From contig JAFLBB010000010.1 of NCBI GenBank assembly GCA_017304135.1, positions 1 through 64,000 on the forward strand: a stretch of DNA of 64,000 nt, read 5' to 3'. This stretch comes from Acidobacteriota bacterium (lineage in GTDB: Bacteria > Acidobacteriota > Terriglobia > Bryobacterales > Bryobacteraceae). Below are positions 5,171-55,033 of the stretch, in pieces. Every line of letters starts with the position of its first letter. The stretch's first letter is position 1. A model generated the notes under the pieces. It saw only the letters and a list, made by a program, of their open reading frames with translations, had not been told where the DNA came from and searched no databases. The translations under genes were made by a program, and so were the position numbers.

Positions 5171-5791
5171 CTAGTGCGATTCCACGGCGCAGAAGCAGTA
5201 AAGGAATTGCTGCTGGGAGCCCCAGGGGGTGTCGTGGATCTCGTGGCGGCTTTCGAGGAGGCGGAAGCGGGCGCCGAATTCGCCGTGGAGGGAAGCAGCA
5301 TCGTAGCGCCGCACTTCGAGGCCGCTGCACTTGAGCGGGCCATCGGGGCCGAAGGTGCTGACGATGACGTGGCCGCCGGGTTTGACGGCGCGGGCGACCT
5401 GACGGACGTAGGCTTCGCGCTGGGCGGGATCGGTGAGGAAGTGGAAGACGGCGCGGTCGTGCCAGACGTCGAAGGCGCGTGCGGGGAAGGCGACGGTGTT
5501 GACGTCGGAGGCGATCCAGCAGACGCGCTCGGCGTCGGCGCCCAGGCGGGCCTGGGTAGCGGCGATGGCTTTGCTCGAGATATCGAGAACGGTGATGTCG
5601 GAGTAACCGCGAGCAAGCAGGTCGTCGACGAGGGTCGAAGCGCCGCCGCCGACGTCAATGATGCCGGCGTCGAGAAGGGGCGCGGCGCGCTCGATGAGGG
5701 TGAGCGAGGTTTCCAGATGAGGGCGGAACCAGCTCACCTCGTGGGCGGCTTTGGTGGCATACACGTTTTCCCAGTGAGTTTGGGAGTCCAT
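5171..5791 (-). CDS. Class I SAM-dependent methyltransferase
   Basis: A 206-aa Rossmann-fold methyltransferase. The AdoMet site is IIDVGGGASTLVDDLL (motif I), followed by ITVLDISSKAI (motif II with acidic residue), WIASDVNTVAF (motif III region) and FDVWHDRAVFHFL (motif IV). The N-terminal HWENVYATKAAHEVSWFRP resembles small-molecule or thiopurine-like methyltransferases, whose members start with a W..Y segment and end in W motifs. The substrate is not predictable. It is directly followed on the minus strand by the nucleoside phosphorylase with a two-base gap, so the two genes form a small operon. Cytoplasmic. Confidence 0.8.
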   Translation of the reverse strand: MDSQTHWENVYATKAAHEVSWFRPHLETSLTLIERAAPLLDAGIIDVGGGASTLVDDLLARGYSDITVLDISSKAIAATQARLGADAERVCWIASDVNTVAFPARAFDVWHDRAVFHFLTDPAQREAYVRQVARAVKPGGHVIVSTFGPDGPLKCSGLEVRRYDAASLHGEFGARFRLLESRHEIHDTPWGSQQQFLYCFCAVESH

Positions 5792-5832
5792 AGCCGGTAT
5801 TGTAACGCCGGGGGCGTGGCCCGCCGCGGGCG

Positions 5833-9180
<3,348 letters not shown>

Positions 9181-49775: not shown

Positions 49776-49804
49776 TTGACTCCGCCCGCCCCCTTGCGTA
49801 GACT
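49776..49804 (+). promoter_or_regulatory. Sigma-70-type promoter of the S8-CHAT unit
   Basis: TTGACT (49776-49781), 17-bp spacer, TAGACT (49799-49804): a close match to consensus at the right spacing. Transcription would start near 49811, giving a ~119-base leader to the S8 start. Confidence 0.65.
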
Positions 49805-49820
49805 CGCTCCCAGATTCCAT

Positions 49821-49859
49821 GCGCTTCCGGAGGGGAAGCGCCGGGGCCACTGGGGGCCC
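49821..49859 (+). other. Two tandem hairpins in the S8 gene leader
   Basis: GCGCTTCC (49821-49828) pairs with GGAAGCGC (49834-49841) around the loop GGAGG. A second stem is GGGCC (49844-49848) with GGCCC (49855-49859). Both lie between the promoter and the S8 start codon, so they would be in the leader RNA. A regulatory role is inferred. Confidence 0.5.
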
Positions 49860-49929
49860 TAACCTAACCACGCACCATCCCGGCGCGCCTGCTGTGAGGC
49901 GCCAAGCCGCGGCATCATCGGGAGGACAC

Positions 49930-51123
49930 ATGAAACGTGAACATGTTATTTTGCGGACCTTCGGTCCGGGCAGCGGGGGCGGCTTTCTGAGCGGAGGTCC
50001 GGGCGGGCTGCCCGCGGCCGCACCTGCGCCGGCCCGCGTCGGTGTTGAGATGGAGATGCTGAGCGCAGGCGATGCGGCCAGGATAGCCAAGAAGCAAGAG
50101 GTGGCCGCGGTGGCCCCGGTGATGCCGATGAAACTCGTCGAGCCGCTCGATGAGGGCCTGGCCGCACCTACGGCCGCCGGGGTTGATTGGGGCGTGGAGG
50201 CCGTCGGGGCGCTGAACTCGCCGTTCACTGGAGACGGCATCGTCGTGGCCGTGCTCGACACCGGCATCGACGCCGCGCATGCGGCCTTTCAAGGAGTGAC
50301 GCTCGTGCAGCGCAGCTTCACCGGCAGCGCCGACGCAAGCGACGACCACGGCCACGGCACGCATTGCGCCGGCACCATCTTCGGCCGCGACGTGACCGGC
50401 GTGCGCATCGGCGTGGCCCGCAGCGTGAAGAAAGCCCTCATCGGCAAGGTGCTCGGGCCCGGCGGCGGCGGCAGCCACCAGATTGTCCAGGCCATTCAAT
50501 GGGCCGTCACCGAAGGCGCCAACGTCATCTCGATGTCGCTGGGCATGGACTTTCCCGGCTACCAGAAACAGCTCGTCACCCAGGCCGGCATGCCGGAGGA
50601 GGTGGCCACCTCGATGGCGCTGGAAGGCTACCGCATGAACGTTTTGCTGTTTGAGCGCCTCGCCGCGATGGTGCTGGCGATGAGCGACTTCATGCAGACC
50701 ACGCTGCTCATTGCCGCCGCCGGCAACGAAAGCCGCACCAACATCGACCCCGACTTCAAGATCGCCGTCGCCCCGCCCGCGGTGTCTGAAGGCATGATCT
50801 CAGTGGCCGCGCTCGGGCGCACGGCCAATGGCCTCACGCCAGCTTCGTTCTCCAACACCGGCGCGCTCATTGCCGGACCGGGCGTGGCCATCACCTCGGC
50901 CAAGCGCGGCGGCGGGCTGGTTTCGATGAGCGGCACAAGCATGGCCACACCGTGCGTGGCCGGCGTGGCCGCGTTGTGGGCGCAGAAACTCAGCGCCGCC
51001 GGGCCGCTCAACACGAAGATCCTCACGGCGCGGCTGCTTGCCTCCGGCACGAGCAACGGCATCGCCCCCGGCGTCGCGCCGGGCGACATCGGCAGCGGTC
51101 TTGTCCAGGCCCCGGCGAACTAG
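49930..51123 (+). CDS. Cytoplasmic subtilisin-like (S8) protease with putative I9-like prodomain
   Basis: A 397-aa protein. ATG 49930 is chosen because GGGAGG lies five bases upstream; the longer frame from 49819 lacks support. The catalytic set is complete: Asp110 in VVAVLDTGIDAAH, His142 in DDHGHGTHCAGTI, Asn266 in IAAAGNESRT, Ser337 in SMSGTSMATPCVAG. The first ~75 residues (HVILRTFGPGSGGG, glycine/proline run, then VEMEMLSAGDAARIAKKQEV) resemble a short prodomain. No signal peptide or membrane segment, so it acts in the cytoplasm, where a prodomain could keep it inactive. A 45-residue insert (~210-255) separates two core strands. The CHAT protease gene follows by 36 bp. Confidence 0.9.
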   Translation: MKREHVILRTFGPGSGGGFLSGGPGGLPAAAPAPARVGVEMEMLSAGDAARIAKKQEVAAVAPVMPMKLVEPLDEGLAAPTAAGVDWGVEAVGALNSPFTGDGIVVAVLDTGIDAAHAAFQGVTLVQRSFTGSADASDDHGHGTHCAGTIFGRDVTGVRIGVARSVKKALIGKVLGPGGGGSHQIVQAIQWAVTEGANVISMSLGMDFPGYQKQLVTQAGMPEEVATSMALEGYRMNVLLFERLAAMVLAMSDFMQTTLLIAAAGNESRTNIDPDFKIAVAPPAVSEGMISVAALGRTANGLTPASFSNTGALIAGPGVAITSAKRGGGLVSMSGTSMATPCVAGVAALWAQKLSAAGPLNTKILTARLLASGTSNGIAPGVAPGDIGSGLVQAPAN

Positions 51124-51159
51124 CCGCGCGGGCGTGGCATCATAACCAGGGAGATTCGT

Positions 51160-53286
51160 TTGAAACAGATCACCTTTGAGCTGTTGCGGCACGGGCCGCC
51201 CAACAACCAGTTGCTCTCGCCGCTCACGCAGTATCTGGCCCTCTGCGAGAACCACCCGGCCACCACGCTCCAGATGCCCTTTGAGCACAACCAGTTCCTG
51301 CACCGCCACCGCGCGCTGAGCTACGCGCTGCGCGGCAACGATCCGACGGGGAACCTGGATGAAGCGCGCTCGTTCCAGGTGAAGGACACGGCGCGGGTTC
51401 TCGGCGAACTGCTGGGCCAGGTGCCGGGCCTGGTGGCCGAGATGAACCGCGACCACGTGAACGGGGGCGACGCCTGCGCCGAGCGGGAAGGCAGCCGCGC
51501 CACGCATTTCCGCATGGTTTTGTCGGCCTCTGAGCTGGCCTTACTGCCCTTTGAGCTCGCCCTCTCGCCGCCCGGCTTCCCCGGCGCGGGTGAACCGCTT
51601 CTGCTCCAACTGCAAGACCCGGTGTGCCTCACCCGCGAGGTGCGCCGCATCGCCGAACGTACGCTGACGTGGCCGCAACAGCCGAGGGTGCTCTTCATCT
51701 CCGCCTTTCCTGGCAACTCGGCGCCGCAGGGCCTCGTGCCGCGCCACCTGCGCATTCTTCACCAGTTGCTCGACCCGTGGGCCGATTACTCGCAGCCCGA
51801 GGAGTCGCGGCTCAAGCACCTCATCACGCATCTGGACAACGCAACCAGCGACGACATCGCACAGGCCTGCGCCGGCGAGCAATATTCGCATGTGCACATT
51901 CTCGCCCACGGCAAGGAGTATCGCGACGGGTTCGACTTCCGTTACGGGCTCGCGCTCGAAAACCGGCTCGCTCCCGGCACGTCCGATGTCGTCAGCGGGG
52001 AACGCCTCGCCACGGCGCTGCGGCCGATGCAATCGCAGCCCGGCCGGCAGGGGTCGCGGCCGCTGGTGGTGACGCTCGCCAGTTGCGATTCCGGCAATCA
52101 GGGCACGGTGTATGGACTCGGCGGCAGCGTCGCCCACGCCTTGCACCAGGCCGAAATTCCGATCGTCATCGCCAGCCAGTTCCCGCTCTCCGTCGATGCC
52201 TCGCGCGAATTCGTCCTGCTGCTCTATGAGGCCCTGCTGTGGGGCAAGGACCCGCGCATCGCGCTGAACACCCTGCGCCGCCGCCTGCACACCCTCTACG
52301 CGAATACGCACGACTGGGCCAGCGTCTCGGCCTACGCATCCCTGCCGGAGAACTTCGAACAGTGGCTGGCTGAAGCCGAGACCCACCAGAATATCCGCGG
52401 CATGGAAGCGGCCCTCAGCTTCGCCGACTCGGTTACGGAAAAAGTGGACGAAGAACGCGGGACGCCGACGGGATCCAGCCCCACCCCCACGCCGCCGCCC
52501 ACGCCCGGCGTGAAAACGGACGACCTCACCGCGCTGCTGGACACCGCGTCGCGGCGAATGGACGAAGGGCGCGCGCGCATTGAGGCCCTGTTCCCGCGGC
52601 AGCCGCACAACGTTGCGAAGCTGGCCGGCAAACTCGCCGCCATTGAGAAGCGCTGCGCGCAAGCCTGTTTTTACTTCGCCGACAAGAGCCCAAATCGCGG
52701 CGCCGAACTGACCCGGCGCTGGCAGTCCATGTTGCACAAGTCGCGCCAACACTACTGGCTTGTCTTTGAAACCGACCGCAGCCAGTCGTGGGCGATCTTG
52801 CAGTATCTCTCGCTCGACCTCATTCTGCGGCGGCTGCACAGCCCGCTGTCCGACCCCGAGCTTACGCTTGACCCACACGAGGAGCACAACCAGCCCGCCG
52901 TGCTGTGGAAGCTCGTCCACGATCTTTCGCTCAACGATCTGCGCGGGAAGGACGAGAAGTTCCGTCTGTGGGCGCTCGGCAATCTTGTCGAACTCTATCT
53001 GCTGGCGCCTCTGGTCGACAAGCTCCAGATCGAGTTGCCCGCCAGCCGCAAGCCGCCTCGGGCGCCCGCCGCGGCGCAGGCGGGTGCAATCGGGCGCGAC
53101 CGGGCGATCCAACATGCGCGCACGCTGATCGACATCGCCGGCCCGGCCTCGTGGGATGTCTACTGCACGCGGCGGCAGGTTCTTCGTTACGCGATCTGGT
53201 TTCCTGAGATCGCCGACGTCGGCGGTGTCAACGACCTGGCATGGGAACTGGCTCGCATTCTGCCGGCCAAGCAGCCGGTGAGTTAA
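51160..53286 (+). CDS. CHAT-domain (caspase-like) protease with C-terminal domain of unknown function
   Basis: A 708-aa cytoplasmic protein. The frame starts with TTG 51160, with CAGGGAG five bases upstream. The CHAT core (residues ~120-400) has the catalytic pair His250 in SHVHILAHGKEYRDG and Cys309 in VVTLASCDSGNQG, plus IVIASQFPLSVDASREFV. Residues 1-115 form an N-terminal domain (KQITFELLRHGPPNNQLLSP..) of no recognised family. After a proline-rich linker (SSPTPTPPPTPG, ~439-450), residues ~455-708 are a helical region (ALLDTASRRMDEGRARIEAL, LQYLSLDLILRRLHSPLSDP) unlike any domain I know. CHAT proteases cut protein substrates after activation, for example in gasdermin and Craspase systems; the substrate here is unknown. 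It follows the S8 protease by 36 bp. Confidence 0.87.
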   Translation: MKQITFELLRHGPPNNQLLSPLTQYLALCENHPATTLQMPFEHNQFLHRHRALSYALRGNDPTGNLDEARSFQVKDTARVLGELLGQVPGLVAEMNRDHVNGGDACAEREGSRATHFRMVLSASELALLPFELALSPPGFPGAGEPLLLQLQDPVCLTREVRRIAERTLTWPQQPRVLFISAFPGNSAPQGLVPRHLRILHQLLDPWADYSQPEESRLKHLITHLDNATSDDIAQACAGEQYSHVHILAHGKEYRDGFDFRYGLALENRLAPGTSDVVSGERLATALRPMQSQPGRQGSRPLVVTLASCDSGNQGTVYGLGGSVAHALHQAEIPIVIASQFPLSVDASREFVLLLYEALLWGKDPRIALNTLRRRLHTLYANTHDWASVSAYASLPENFEQWLAEAETHQNIRGMEAALSFADSVTEKVDEERGTPTGSSPTPTPPPTPGVKTDDLTALLDTASRRMDEGRARIEALFPRQPHNVAKLAGKLAAIEKRCAQACFYFADKSPNRGAELTRRWQSMLHKSRQHYWLVFETDRSQSWAILQYLSLDLILRRLHSPLSDPELTLDPHEEHNQPAVLWKLVHDLSLNDLRGKDEKFRLWALGNLVELYLLAPLVDKLQIELPASRKPPRAPAAAQAGAIGRDRAIQHARTLIDIAGPASWDVYCTRRQVLRYAIWFPEIADVGGVNDLAWELARILPAKQPVS

Positions 53287-53312: not shown

Positions 53313-53585
53313 ATGGGCTTCGCACTGTGGACCGACGACGACACCGCCTGGGCTGCCGGCACGCATGAATACCGGCCGATGGGCATCGCCGTGATCGCGC
53401 GGTCGAGTGTGTTTGCGGCGCGCGACTTCCGTCCGGCGCGCCGTCTGCCCGTGCGTTCCGGACCTCATTTCCGGGGCCTGTTTGCCTCGCTCGGCGACAT
53501 GAACGCGTTCCTTGGCCGGAGCCGGTCACAAGACGCGAAAAAAAATATGCGGCAGGGTTCAAGCCGACAGCTGGCAATCACTTAG
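53313..53585 (+). CDS. Small protein (90 aa) of unknown function
   Basis: A 90-aa frame starting 26 bp after the CHAT gene. GC-rich third positions fit a real gene until about residue 73; the end (AKKNMRQGSSRQLAIT) is A/T-richer. It reads GFALWTDDDTAWAAGTHEYR, then AARDFRPARRLPVRSGPHFR and SLGDMNAFLGR. No family recognised, no Cys, no membrane segment or signal. The ribosome-binding site is weak (GAGACCAGCAC before ATG). It may be a substrate, adaptor or unrelated. Confidence 0.45.
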   Translation: MGFALWTDDDTAWAAGTHEYRPMGIAVIARSSVFAARDFRPARRLPVRSGPHFRGLFASLGDMNAFLGRSRSQDAKKNMRQGSSRQLAIT

Positions 53586-53671: not shown

Positions 53672-55033
53672 ATGAACCGCACCCCATTCCTCACCCCGTT
53701 CCGCCTCCGGCTGGCCGCACTCGAAGAAGGCAGCGGCGGCGCGCTTCGCCTGCCCCCCTTCACCACCACCCTATCGGACGCGCAAGCGCGCGTGGACCCT
53801 GTCACGGGAGACGCCGTGCTCACTTGCATGCCACTTGATGACGGCCTGCGGCTGGGCTTGACCGAGCGCGAAGAACAACGCCTGCGGGCCCATCTTTATG
53901 ACGCCGGCGCGGCGCGCCTGGGGCGCAGGCTGGCAGCGTTTCCCGCTGTTGCGGGCGAGGTCCCGGTGGTCGATCTCGCTTTGCCCGCACTCGAAAAACG
54001 AATGGCCCCGGCGCGGGCGGAGATGTGGCGGGGAGCAGACGGCGAGGCCGGCGATGGCGGATACGCTCAGGCCATCGCCTCGGGCTGGCTGGCGGCACGG
54101 CAGGACGCGGCGCCGCTGCCGCCGCTGAGCTGGTCGCACGAATGCCGGCTCTCGGGCCACATGGCGCGCGCGTTGCTGAAGCCGCTGTGGGAGTCGTATC
54201 AGGGCGCATCGCCGATGGCTTCGATTCCGGCCAACGCGGCCTACCAGGCGCGGATGGAAGTGACGCTGCCGGGCCATGCGATGAGCGGCTGGTACGGGCT
54301 CGGGCCGGAGCGCACGCATGGGTTCTTCAAATCGTTGACGCGGGTCTCGGCATCGGTCCAGCGGGCGTTGCGCAACTGGCTGCCGCTGCTCTGGATGGGC
54401 GACGGCGAACTGTTTCACACGCCGAGGGAGGGTGTGTCGCTGCTCGCCTATGCGTCGCTGCCGGCGCTGCTGGCGCGCTCGCGGCGCAACTATACCTACG
54501 ATCCGGTGGACAACTCAAGCTGGCTGCAGGCGCTCACCTACGCCACGCGGCGGCTGCAGAAACAACTGCAGGTCTGGTATCCGGCGCTGGCCGCGCTGGA
54601 CCATCCTGCTGCTGAACTGGTTCACCCGCGCTGGCATTCCCGTTGGAGCGGCGACCTGATGCGCAACGGCAAACGGATTCAGACGCTGCTGGCCAATGAG
54701 GCGTGGCTGATCGATCAGTTCGTCAACTTCGCCGCCGGTATGGAAGACCTTGCCGGCCGGCCATCGTTGAACGGTTGCATCCGTACAGGACGCGAGTTGC
54801 ACGGGGCCTTGGACGCGCGGCTGCGGCGCTGGTGGGACGGCCGCCAGGCGCAGGCCGTGAACAGCCTTCTTCTCATCGAGGCCACCTCGGCGCTGACGCG
54901 GGAGCCGGTGACCCTCTCCATTTCCCTACGCAAACTGGTGTCGCGACAGGCCCCCGAAGGGCCTCTGGTCATGTCGGCGCACCGGGGCCCAGAGGCCCCG
55001 GCGGATCCGTCTGATGCGGGCGAGGCCGCTTAG
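53672..55033 (+). CDS. 453-aa protein of unknown function, last gene of the S8-CHAT region
   Basis: GAGAGGATTCGCC precedes ATG 53672, a reasonable ribosome-binding site. The protein has no signal peptide, membrane segment or known motif. It seems to have an N-terminal ~120-residue part ([40 protein letters not shown]) and a mostly helical, Trp/Arg-rich body ([40 protein letters not shown]). Cys: three or fewer, none in a pattern. The unstructured Pro/Ala-rich tail ends at AGEAA. I recognise no family. It follows the S8, CHAT and 90-aa genes on the same strand (86 bp gap), so it could be a target or effector of the proteases, but nothing direct shows that. It overlaps the YgjV-like gene by four bases, convergently. 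Confidence 0.75.

Follow-up and report, generated by a model that had tools for sequence, protein, structure and literature searches.

The gene pair considered here occupies positions 49776-53286 of a 64,000-nucleotide stretch (the window) of contig JAFLBB010000010.1, from a soil bacterium of the Acidobacteria, and encodes a subtilisin-type serine protease (S8) followed by a CHAT protease with a C-terminal helical domain. It is proposed that the pair is one form of a two-gene biological-conflict module, in which a constant CHAT protein with a TPR-S-like C-terminal domain is combined with a variable upstream partner enzyme; the probability of this reading is put at roughly 0.5. A regulated role in conflict or signalling is the best guess because the operon is conserved, the catalytic residues are intact, both proteins look cytoplasmic, and genes of the conflict type occur as other CHAT partners or in other contexts of this S8 subfamily (Avs1a/LmuA-like metallo-beta-lactamase (MBL), TIR, NACHT and EAD1-trypsin). 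The features of the locus, all on the forward (+) strand, are:

49776..49804 (+): sigma-70-like promoter, TTGACT-17-TAGACT, 5′ of S8 (1 found, 0.3 expected)
49930..51123 (+): S8 protease, 397 amino acids (Pfam Peptidase_S8, E 3.7e-35)
49930..50187 (+): S8 N-terminal region, residues 1-86, which may be an autoinhibitory prodomain; carries a YVILR-like motif and the conserved 'aPvMPxkLIxP'
50548..50697 (+): insert specific to the subfamily in the S8 catalytic domain, approximately residues 207-256 (DFPGY...ALEGYR.N..LFE), from the subfamily alignment
51160..53286 (+): CHAT protease with C-terminal helical domain, 708 amino acids, TTG start (Pfam CHAT, E 2.3e-20)
51160..51654 (+): CHAT N-terminal part, residues 1-165, with the conserved family signature RxGPpHNQLLSPLTxY
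51667..52347 (+): active CHAT domain, residues 170-396, with H250/C309 (invariance in 81/81; structural alignment)
52348..53283 (+): C-terminal alpha-helical domain, residues 397-708, a TPR-S-like sensor candidate (conserved residues; TPR-S matches in homologues)

Upstream partners across the CHAT family

An alignment-based scan of one genome per species (84,980 species) recovered 80 loci of this CHAT family; a scan of the genome collection with a single CHAT sequence as the query returned no match. The family spans several phyla, and nearly all of its loci have an adjoining upstream partner. In about 70 of the 80, among them L041, L047 and L054 as read by eye, this is a calcineurin-like phosphoesterase of approximately 495 amino acids, placed directly upstream with a gap that is usually -4 to 20 bp; its share is possibly inflated because phosphoesterase-associated members served as seeds for the scan, which does not affect the nesting of the S8 clade described below. 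The metal ligands of the phosphoesterase (D23, H25, D64, N119, H120, H170, H389 and H391) are practically invariant across 66 aligned copies. At the window locus, the S8 protease stands where this enzyme normally precedes CHAT. As the usual partner is a phosphoesterase, it is CHAT, and not the protease pair, that stays constant. The initial annotation had proposed that both proteases form a joint conflict or signalling system; the partners and contexts are of the conflict type, as it supposed, but S8 is not the usual companion of CHAT.

The slot also accepts other enzymes. One partner (genome G174) is an MBL hydrolase that matches the PADLOC LmuA model (E 3e-68) and NCBIfam Avs1a with 206 bits (E 7e-61), which is under the cut-off of 420 of the latter model. 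The partners at L094 and L106 are TIR/TPR proteins. Three Bacteroidota loci (L090, at 5222-5944, L096 and L104) carry an upstream partner of 240 amino acids without a family, beginning MGLxxQF. At L021 (8976-10914, genome G064) CHAT is split over two frames, with a seemingly intact phosphoesterase next to it, which points to gene decay. A Methylobacterium plasmid of 37.6 kb (L133) has a phosphoesterase-CHAT pair, with another metallophosphoesterase and a Dam methylase nearby.

The three CHAT proteins that accompany S8 form one clade (support 100) in an 81-row tree. This is nested in a clade of 14 rows (support 99), of which the other 11 are all phosphoesterase-associated. Because of this nesting, S8 is read as a replacement of the phosphoesterase in the partner slot; from the sequences, the simplest reading is that it took over the place of that enzyme. 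A search without a positive control found no phosphoesterase of the partner family elsewhere in the window genome.

The exact S8-CHAT pair occurs in the window and at two of the 80 family loci, all in one genus of the Bryobacterales. Conserved adjacency of the two genes, which had been suggested as a check of the joint system, is thus upheld in the same order in 3/3 genomes found of the genus (the window, G108 and G218), with the exact pair confined to that genus. Identity to the congeners over the aligned stretch is 68-71% for S8 and about 54% for CHAT, and the S8 triad and the CHAT histidine and cysteine are intact. The ratio of nonsynonymous to synonymous substitution rates (dN/dS) between congeners is 0.23-0.35 at a dS of 0.5-1.1 for both genes; this purifying selection indicates that the pair has long been retained. 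A fourth genome of the family (G083) has an S8 copy that is 48% identical, without this CHAT.

The S8 subfamily has conflict-type contexts of its own. Homologues that are 44-58% identical share the YVILR-like and 'aPvMPxkLIxP' motifs and the catalytic-domain insert of approximately 50 residues. Members of the subfamily adjoin an EAD1-trypsin-NACHT-FGS gene (L027), a NACHT gene (L129) and a class 3 lipase (L123), and the neighbour at L122 looks like a caspase-clan protein by eye, with no Pfam match. On a Sphingomonas plasmid, a C14 caspase precedes S8, followed by a second CHAT and a TIR gene; on an Agrobacterium pTi plasmid, CHAT precedes S8 and TIR follows. Trypsin follows S8 on a Bradyrhizobium plasmid, and on a Sinorhizobium plasmid CHAT precedes a more distant S8 copy. 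Coupling of S8 to a second protease therefore recurs, since unrelated replicons carry members of the subfamily next to CHAT, caspase, trypsin or NACHT genes. As BLAST does not match the pTi and Sinorhizobium CHAT proteins to that of the window, S8 and CHAT probably became coupled at least twice, and this repetition gives the best evidence that the two proteases are functionally linked.

Some side observations concern these S8 loci. The pTi locus (L130), on a conjugative plasmid, is a dense cluster of two CHAT, two S8, one caspase and two TIR genes. Distant S8 copies in Palleronia, Methylobacterium, Vibrio and Deinococcus (L134, L135, L136 and L137) are each followed by an open reading frame (ORF) of 75-80 amino acids, possibly an inhibitor or adaptor in a different pairing. 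The S8 copies of G360 (L121) and G588 (L124) have stop codons in the matched stretch, as in decay.

The two proteases and their surroundings

The CHAT protein has the domain, the catalytic histidine and the cysteine expected of a clan CD peptidase, with H250 and C309 identical in every sequence aligned. The AlphaFold2 model has a mean predicted local distance difference test (pLDDT) of 88 and a predicted template modelling score (pTM) of 0.90. Residues 1-396 align structurally to TPR-CHAT and separase with Z about 20-24 (up to 23.8 for the Craspase protein, about 21 for separase), and SAVED-CHAT (8tl0) aligns to residues 170-413 (Z 20.8). Residues 1-165 probably form the pseudo-protease half of this fold, which is like that of separase and TPR-CHAT. 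The Foldseek/VIA structure lists cover residues 1-410, so that the helical part is barely sampled and the absence of ASK1 from them is uninformative.

This helical part had been annotated as belonging to no recognised family, a description that no longer holds, as remote kinship to TPR-S was found. Pfam TPR-S (PF20308) matches 35 of 50 CHAT-family members (best 5e-9), just behind the CHAT domain in the members inspected, and exceeds its cut-off in two (L022 with 33 bits, G120 with 34.3 bits); at loose thresholds, the model also matches widely in other genomes. With hhalign, the C-terminal alignment of the window family gave 72-79% against three strong TPR-S proteins (E 1.5e-5 to 3e-5) and 0.5% against a control TPR region. 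With moderate confidence, the alignments suggest that the C-terminal domain is TPR-S-like. R498, W544, E611, Q673 and R676 are nearly invariant in it across the family. TPR-S has reportedly been proposed as a sensor of NAD+-derived signals, and is said to have a relation to ASK kinases. A proline-rich linker (430-455) separates the first long helix behind CHAT from the remaining helical domain; model confidence is low there (pLDDT 57-62 at 431-450), and the linker varies in length and sequence among homologues.

The S8 protease has the Asp/His/Ser triad and oxyanion Asn in subtilase motifs, and D110, H142, N266 and S337 are invariant across 12 subfamily members. The catalytic residues of both proteases are thus as initially annotated, and their loss in homologues, named there as a sign against a joint system, was not seen in the sequences aligned. 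Among solved structures, the subfamily profile is closest to intracellular subtilisins (7xr8, E 2e-46). The insert is skipped when the profile is aligned to a solved intracellular subtilisin; it is seen in close subfamily members and is mostly missing from distant S8 copies such as L134 and L136. The prodomain-like nature ascribed to residues 1-86 found less backing: the region is partly conserved within the subfamily, yet its profile matches neither a solved structure nor a Pfam inhibitor domain. A conserved LIxP motif at 69-72, spotted by eye, was compared with the LIPY-type propeptide of intracellular subtilisins, with no profile match. From its conservation, the region may be an autoinhibitory prodomain. 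The AlphaFold2 model of S8, built without an alignment, is unusable (pLDDT 29).

The S8 ORF mechanically opens at 49819. The sequence GGGAGGACAC directly precedes the ATG at 49930, which is most likely the start (397 amino acids), the longer frame being unlikely. The TTG start of CHAT is kept in both congeners, the intergenic gap is 36 bp in the window versus 10 bp in both of them, and the promoter site at 49776-49804 is not conserved in them. By hydropathy, the N termini of S8 and CHAT have neither a signal peptide nor a transmembrane-like stretch; S8 is probably cytoplasmic, and both proteins look so. The picture of two intact proteases without export signals, 36 bp apart behind one promoter, was therefore correct as judged from the Pfam matches, the single sigma-70-like site and hydropathy.

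The genus shares the downstream genes: a 90-amino acid ORF, a 453-amino acid ORF and a malQ-like gene of 750 amino acids, which indicates vertical inheritance. The 90-amino acid ORF (53313-53585), between CHAT and the next gene, is 78-82% identical in congeners, more than S8 or CHAT, with a dN/dS of 0.15-0.21 and no Pfam match; the 453-amino acid ORF (53672-55033) is assigned to no family. Both look like real genes. They were left out as further module members, as the phosphoesterase-CHAT loci L018-L022 showed neither of them, and the remote relatives of the 453-amino acid protein (29 of 121 related genomes) mostly lack a hit of this CHAT family. Given these relatives, this protein is probably independent of the protease pair. 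Elsewhere in the window genome, contigs C316 and C287 hold two more CHAT proteins of another kind (frames of 893 and 880 amino acids); that on C287 seems to lie near genes resembling extracytoplasmic function (ECF) sigma factors.

Proposed mechanism and competing explanations

The CHAT protein is most likely the activator and its partner the effector, because CHAT stays the same and its partner changes, and some partners match models of known defence effectors. The TPR-S-like domain would sense a signal, possibly a nucleotide. The activated CHAT protease would then act on the likely effector encoded upstream. In the window genus, where a cytoplasmic S8 protease occupies the slot that most loci give to the calcineurin-like phosphoesterase, CHAT would cleave or allosterically release the S8 zymogen. 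Activation may proceed through proteolytic removal of the inhibitory N-terminal region, and the freed S8 activity would damage the cell or a specific target. Such damage would be toxic and could act against invaders, and the module may have a link to phages. The order of cleavage, from CHAT to S8, is suggested by analogy.

Several points weigh against this proposal. An ordered cascade is plausible given the analogous SAVED-CHAT cascade, but the sequence itself gives no cutting order. The flanks of the CHAT family hold few defence-type genes (a raw count, with no background rate). The window CHAT protein has no match to the Pfam TPR-S model, and the TPR-S assignment is remote. The locus seems to be stably inherited in the genus and not on an evident mobile island, and the subfamily S8 is stand-alone in several Acidobacteria, so that it is able to work without CHAT. 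Such stand-alone copies, the apparent vertical inheritance and the shared downstream genes would also suit ordinary regulated intracellular proteolysis, in turnover or development, by co-transcribed proteases with no mutual action. This is improbable in view of the tight operon, the swapping of partners with defence-type enzymes and the rarity of the family, to which 8 of 200 genomes from this order gave a match.

The roles of the two enzymes could also be arranged differently. S8 is transcribed ahead of CHAT and might initiate, cutting CHAT at a site such as the proline-rich, low-confidence linker, with CHAT as the executioner; the linker is, however, unconserved among homologues and CHAT is constant across partners, as a regulator would be, which leaves little room for the reversed order. 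It is also conceivable, if unlikely, that the slot holds an off-switch. The phosphoesterase would destroy the nucleotide signal that the TPR-S-like domain detects, S8 would instead degrade active CHAT, and CHAT would be the effector. The practically invariant metal ligands fit this arrangement, as does the demand on one slot to take enzymes of three chemistries, and a nucleotide is reportedly the proposed ligand of TPR-S. The Avs1a/LmuA-like MBL in the slot nevertheless resembles an effector, and S8 also lies in conflict contexts where this CHAT is absent; both points speak against an off-switch.

Relation to known systems and significance

In the system of Steens et al. 2024, a signal-activated CHAT protease reportedly acts on a further protease. 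The SAVED-CHAT/PCaspase cascade of type III-B CRISPR is cited in PMC11417357. The window protein shares the CHAT domain fold of SAVED-CHAT, but its sensor candidate is a TPR-like array instead of SAVED, the second protease is S8 and not a caspase, and no CRISPR genes were seen beside the locus. No SAVED domain was found in the Pfam scan, and the match of the PADLOC SAVED_CHAT model is confined to the CHAT part (residues 224-398). The pseudo-protease and active CHAT fold resembles the TPR-CHAT protein (Csx29) of Craspase; the TPR array of Csx29 is N-terminal to CHAT, whereas the helical array of the window protein is C-terminal, and no Cas7-11 neighbour was seen. The C-terminal domain of the family resembles TPR-S conflict proteins (PF20308), from which the window protein differs in lying under the detection of the Pfam model, in its fusion to CHAT and in its pairing with S8.

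Modular conflict systems based on caspases are well described (Kaur et al. 2020, PMC7159879; Kaur et al. 2021, PMC8195603). The EACC1-caspase and EAD/trypsin/NACHT systems are likewise modular operons in which a caspase-like protease is constant and the effectors vary, and the subfamily S8 at L027 directly adjoins a gene of the latter kind. Unlike EACC1-caspase, the window locus has no EACC1 transmembrane protein or EAD, its 5′ gene being an S8 without a transmembrane-like stretch; EACC1-caspase varies the domain fused behind the caspase, whereas the CHAT module varies the 5′ gene. IetAS (an AAA ATPase with an S8 protease) also places S8 in a defence setting, but the match to IetS is short and weak (28 bits over 63 residues) and no AAA partner lies at the window locus. 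As in intracellular subtilisins, the S8 is probably cytoplasmic, with no signal peptide by hydropathy, and it differs from them in its insert, a longer N-terminal region and the operon with CHAT.

Neither NCBIfam 2026 nor PADLOC 2023 has a specific model for this CHAT or phosphoesterase family. No description of a CHAT module with metallophosphoesterase, calcineurin or subtilisin partners was found in the literature, where the 2020 paper defining TPR-S was not covered and an earlier description is possible. It is tentatively suggested that this is an undescribed immune or cell-suicide module of several phyla, in which CHAT, bearing a TPR-S-like sensor at its C terminus, governs a replaceable partner enzyme, and which one lineage may have turned into a two-protease cascade of the caspase and subtilisin clans. 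If this is true, a widespread protease-controlled module would join bacterial regulated cell death. The family would also offer a natural swap experiment, in which one CHAT activator has partners of different kinds (phosphoesterase, nuclease-like MBL or protease) and the role of the slot is directly testable. The window lineage would then hold a bacterial proteolytic cascade of two clans, a parallel to the caspase cascades of animals.

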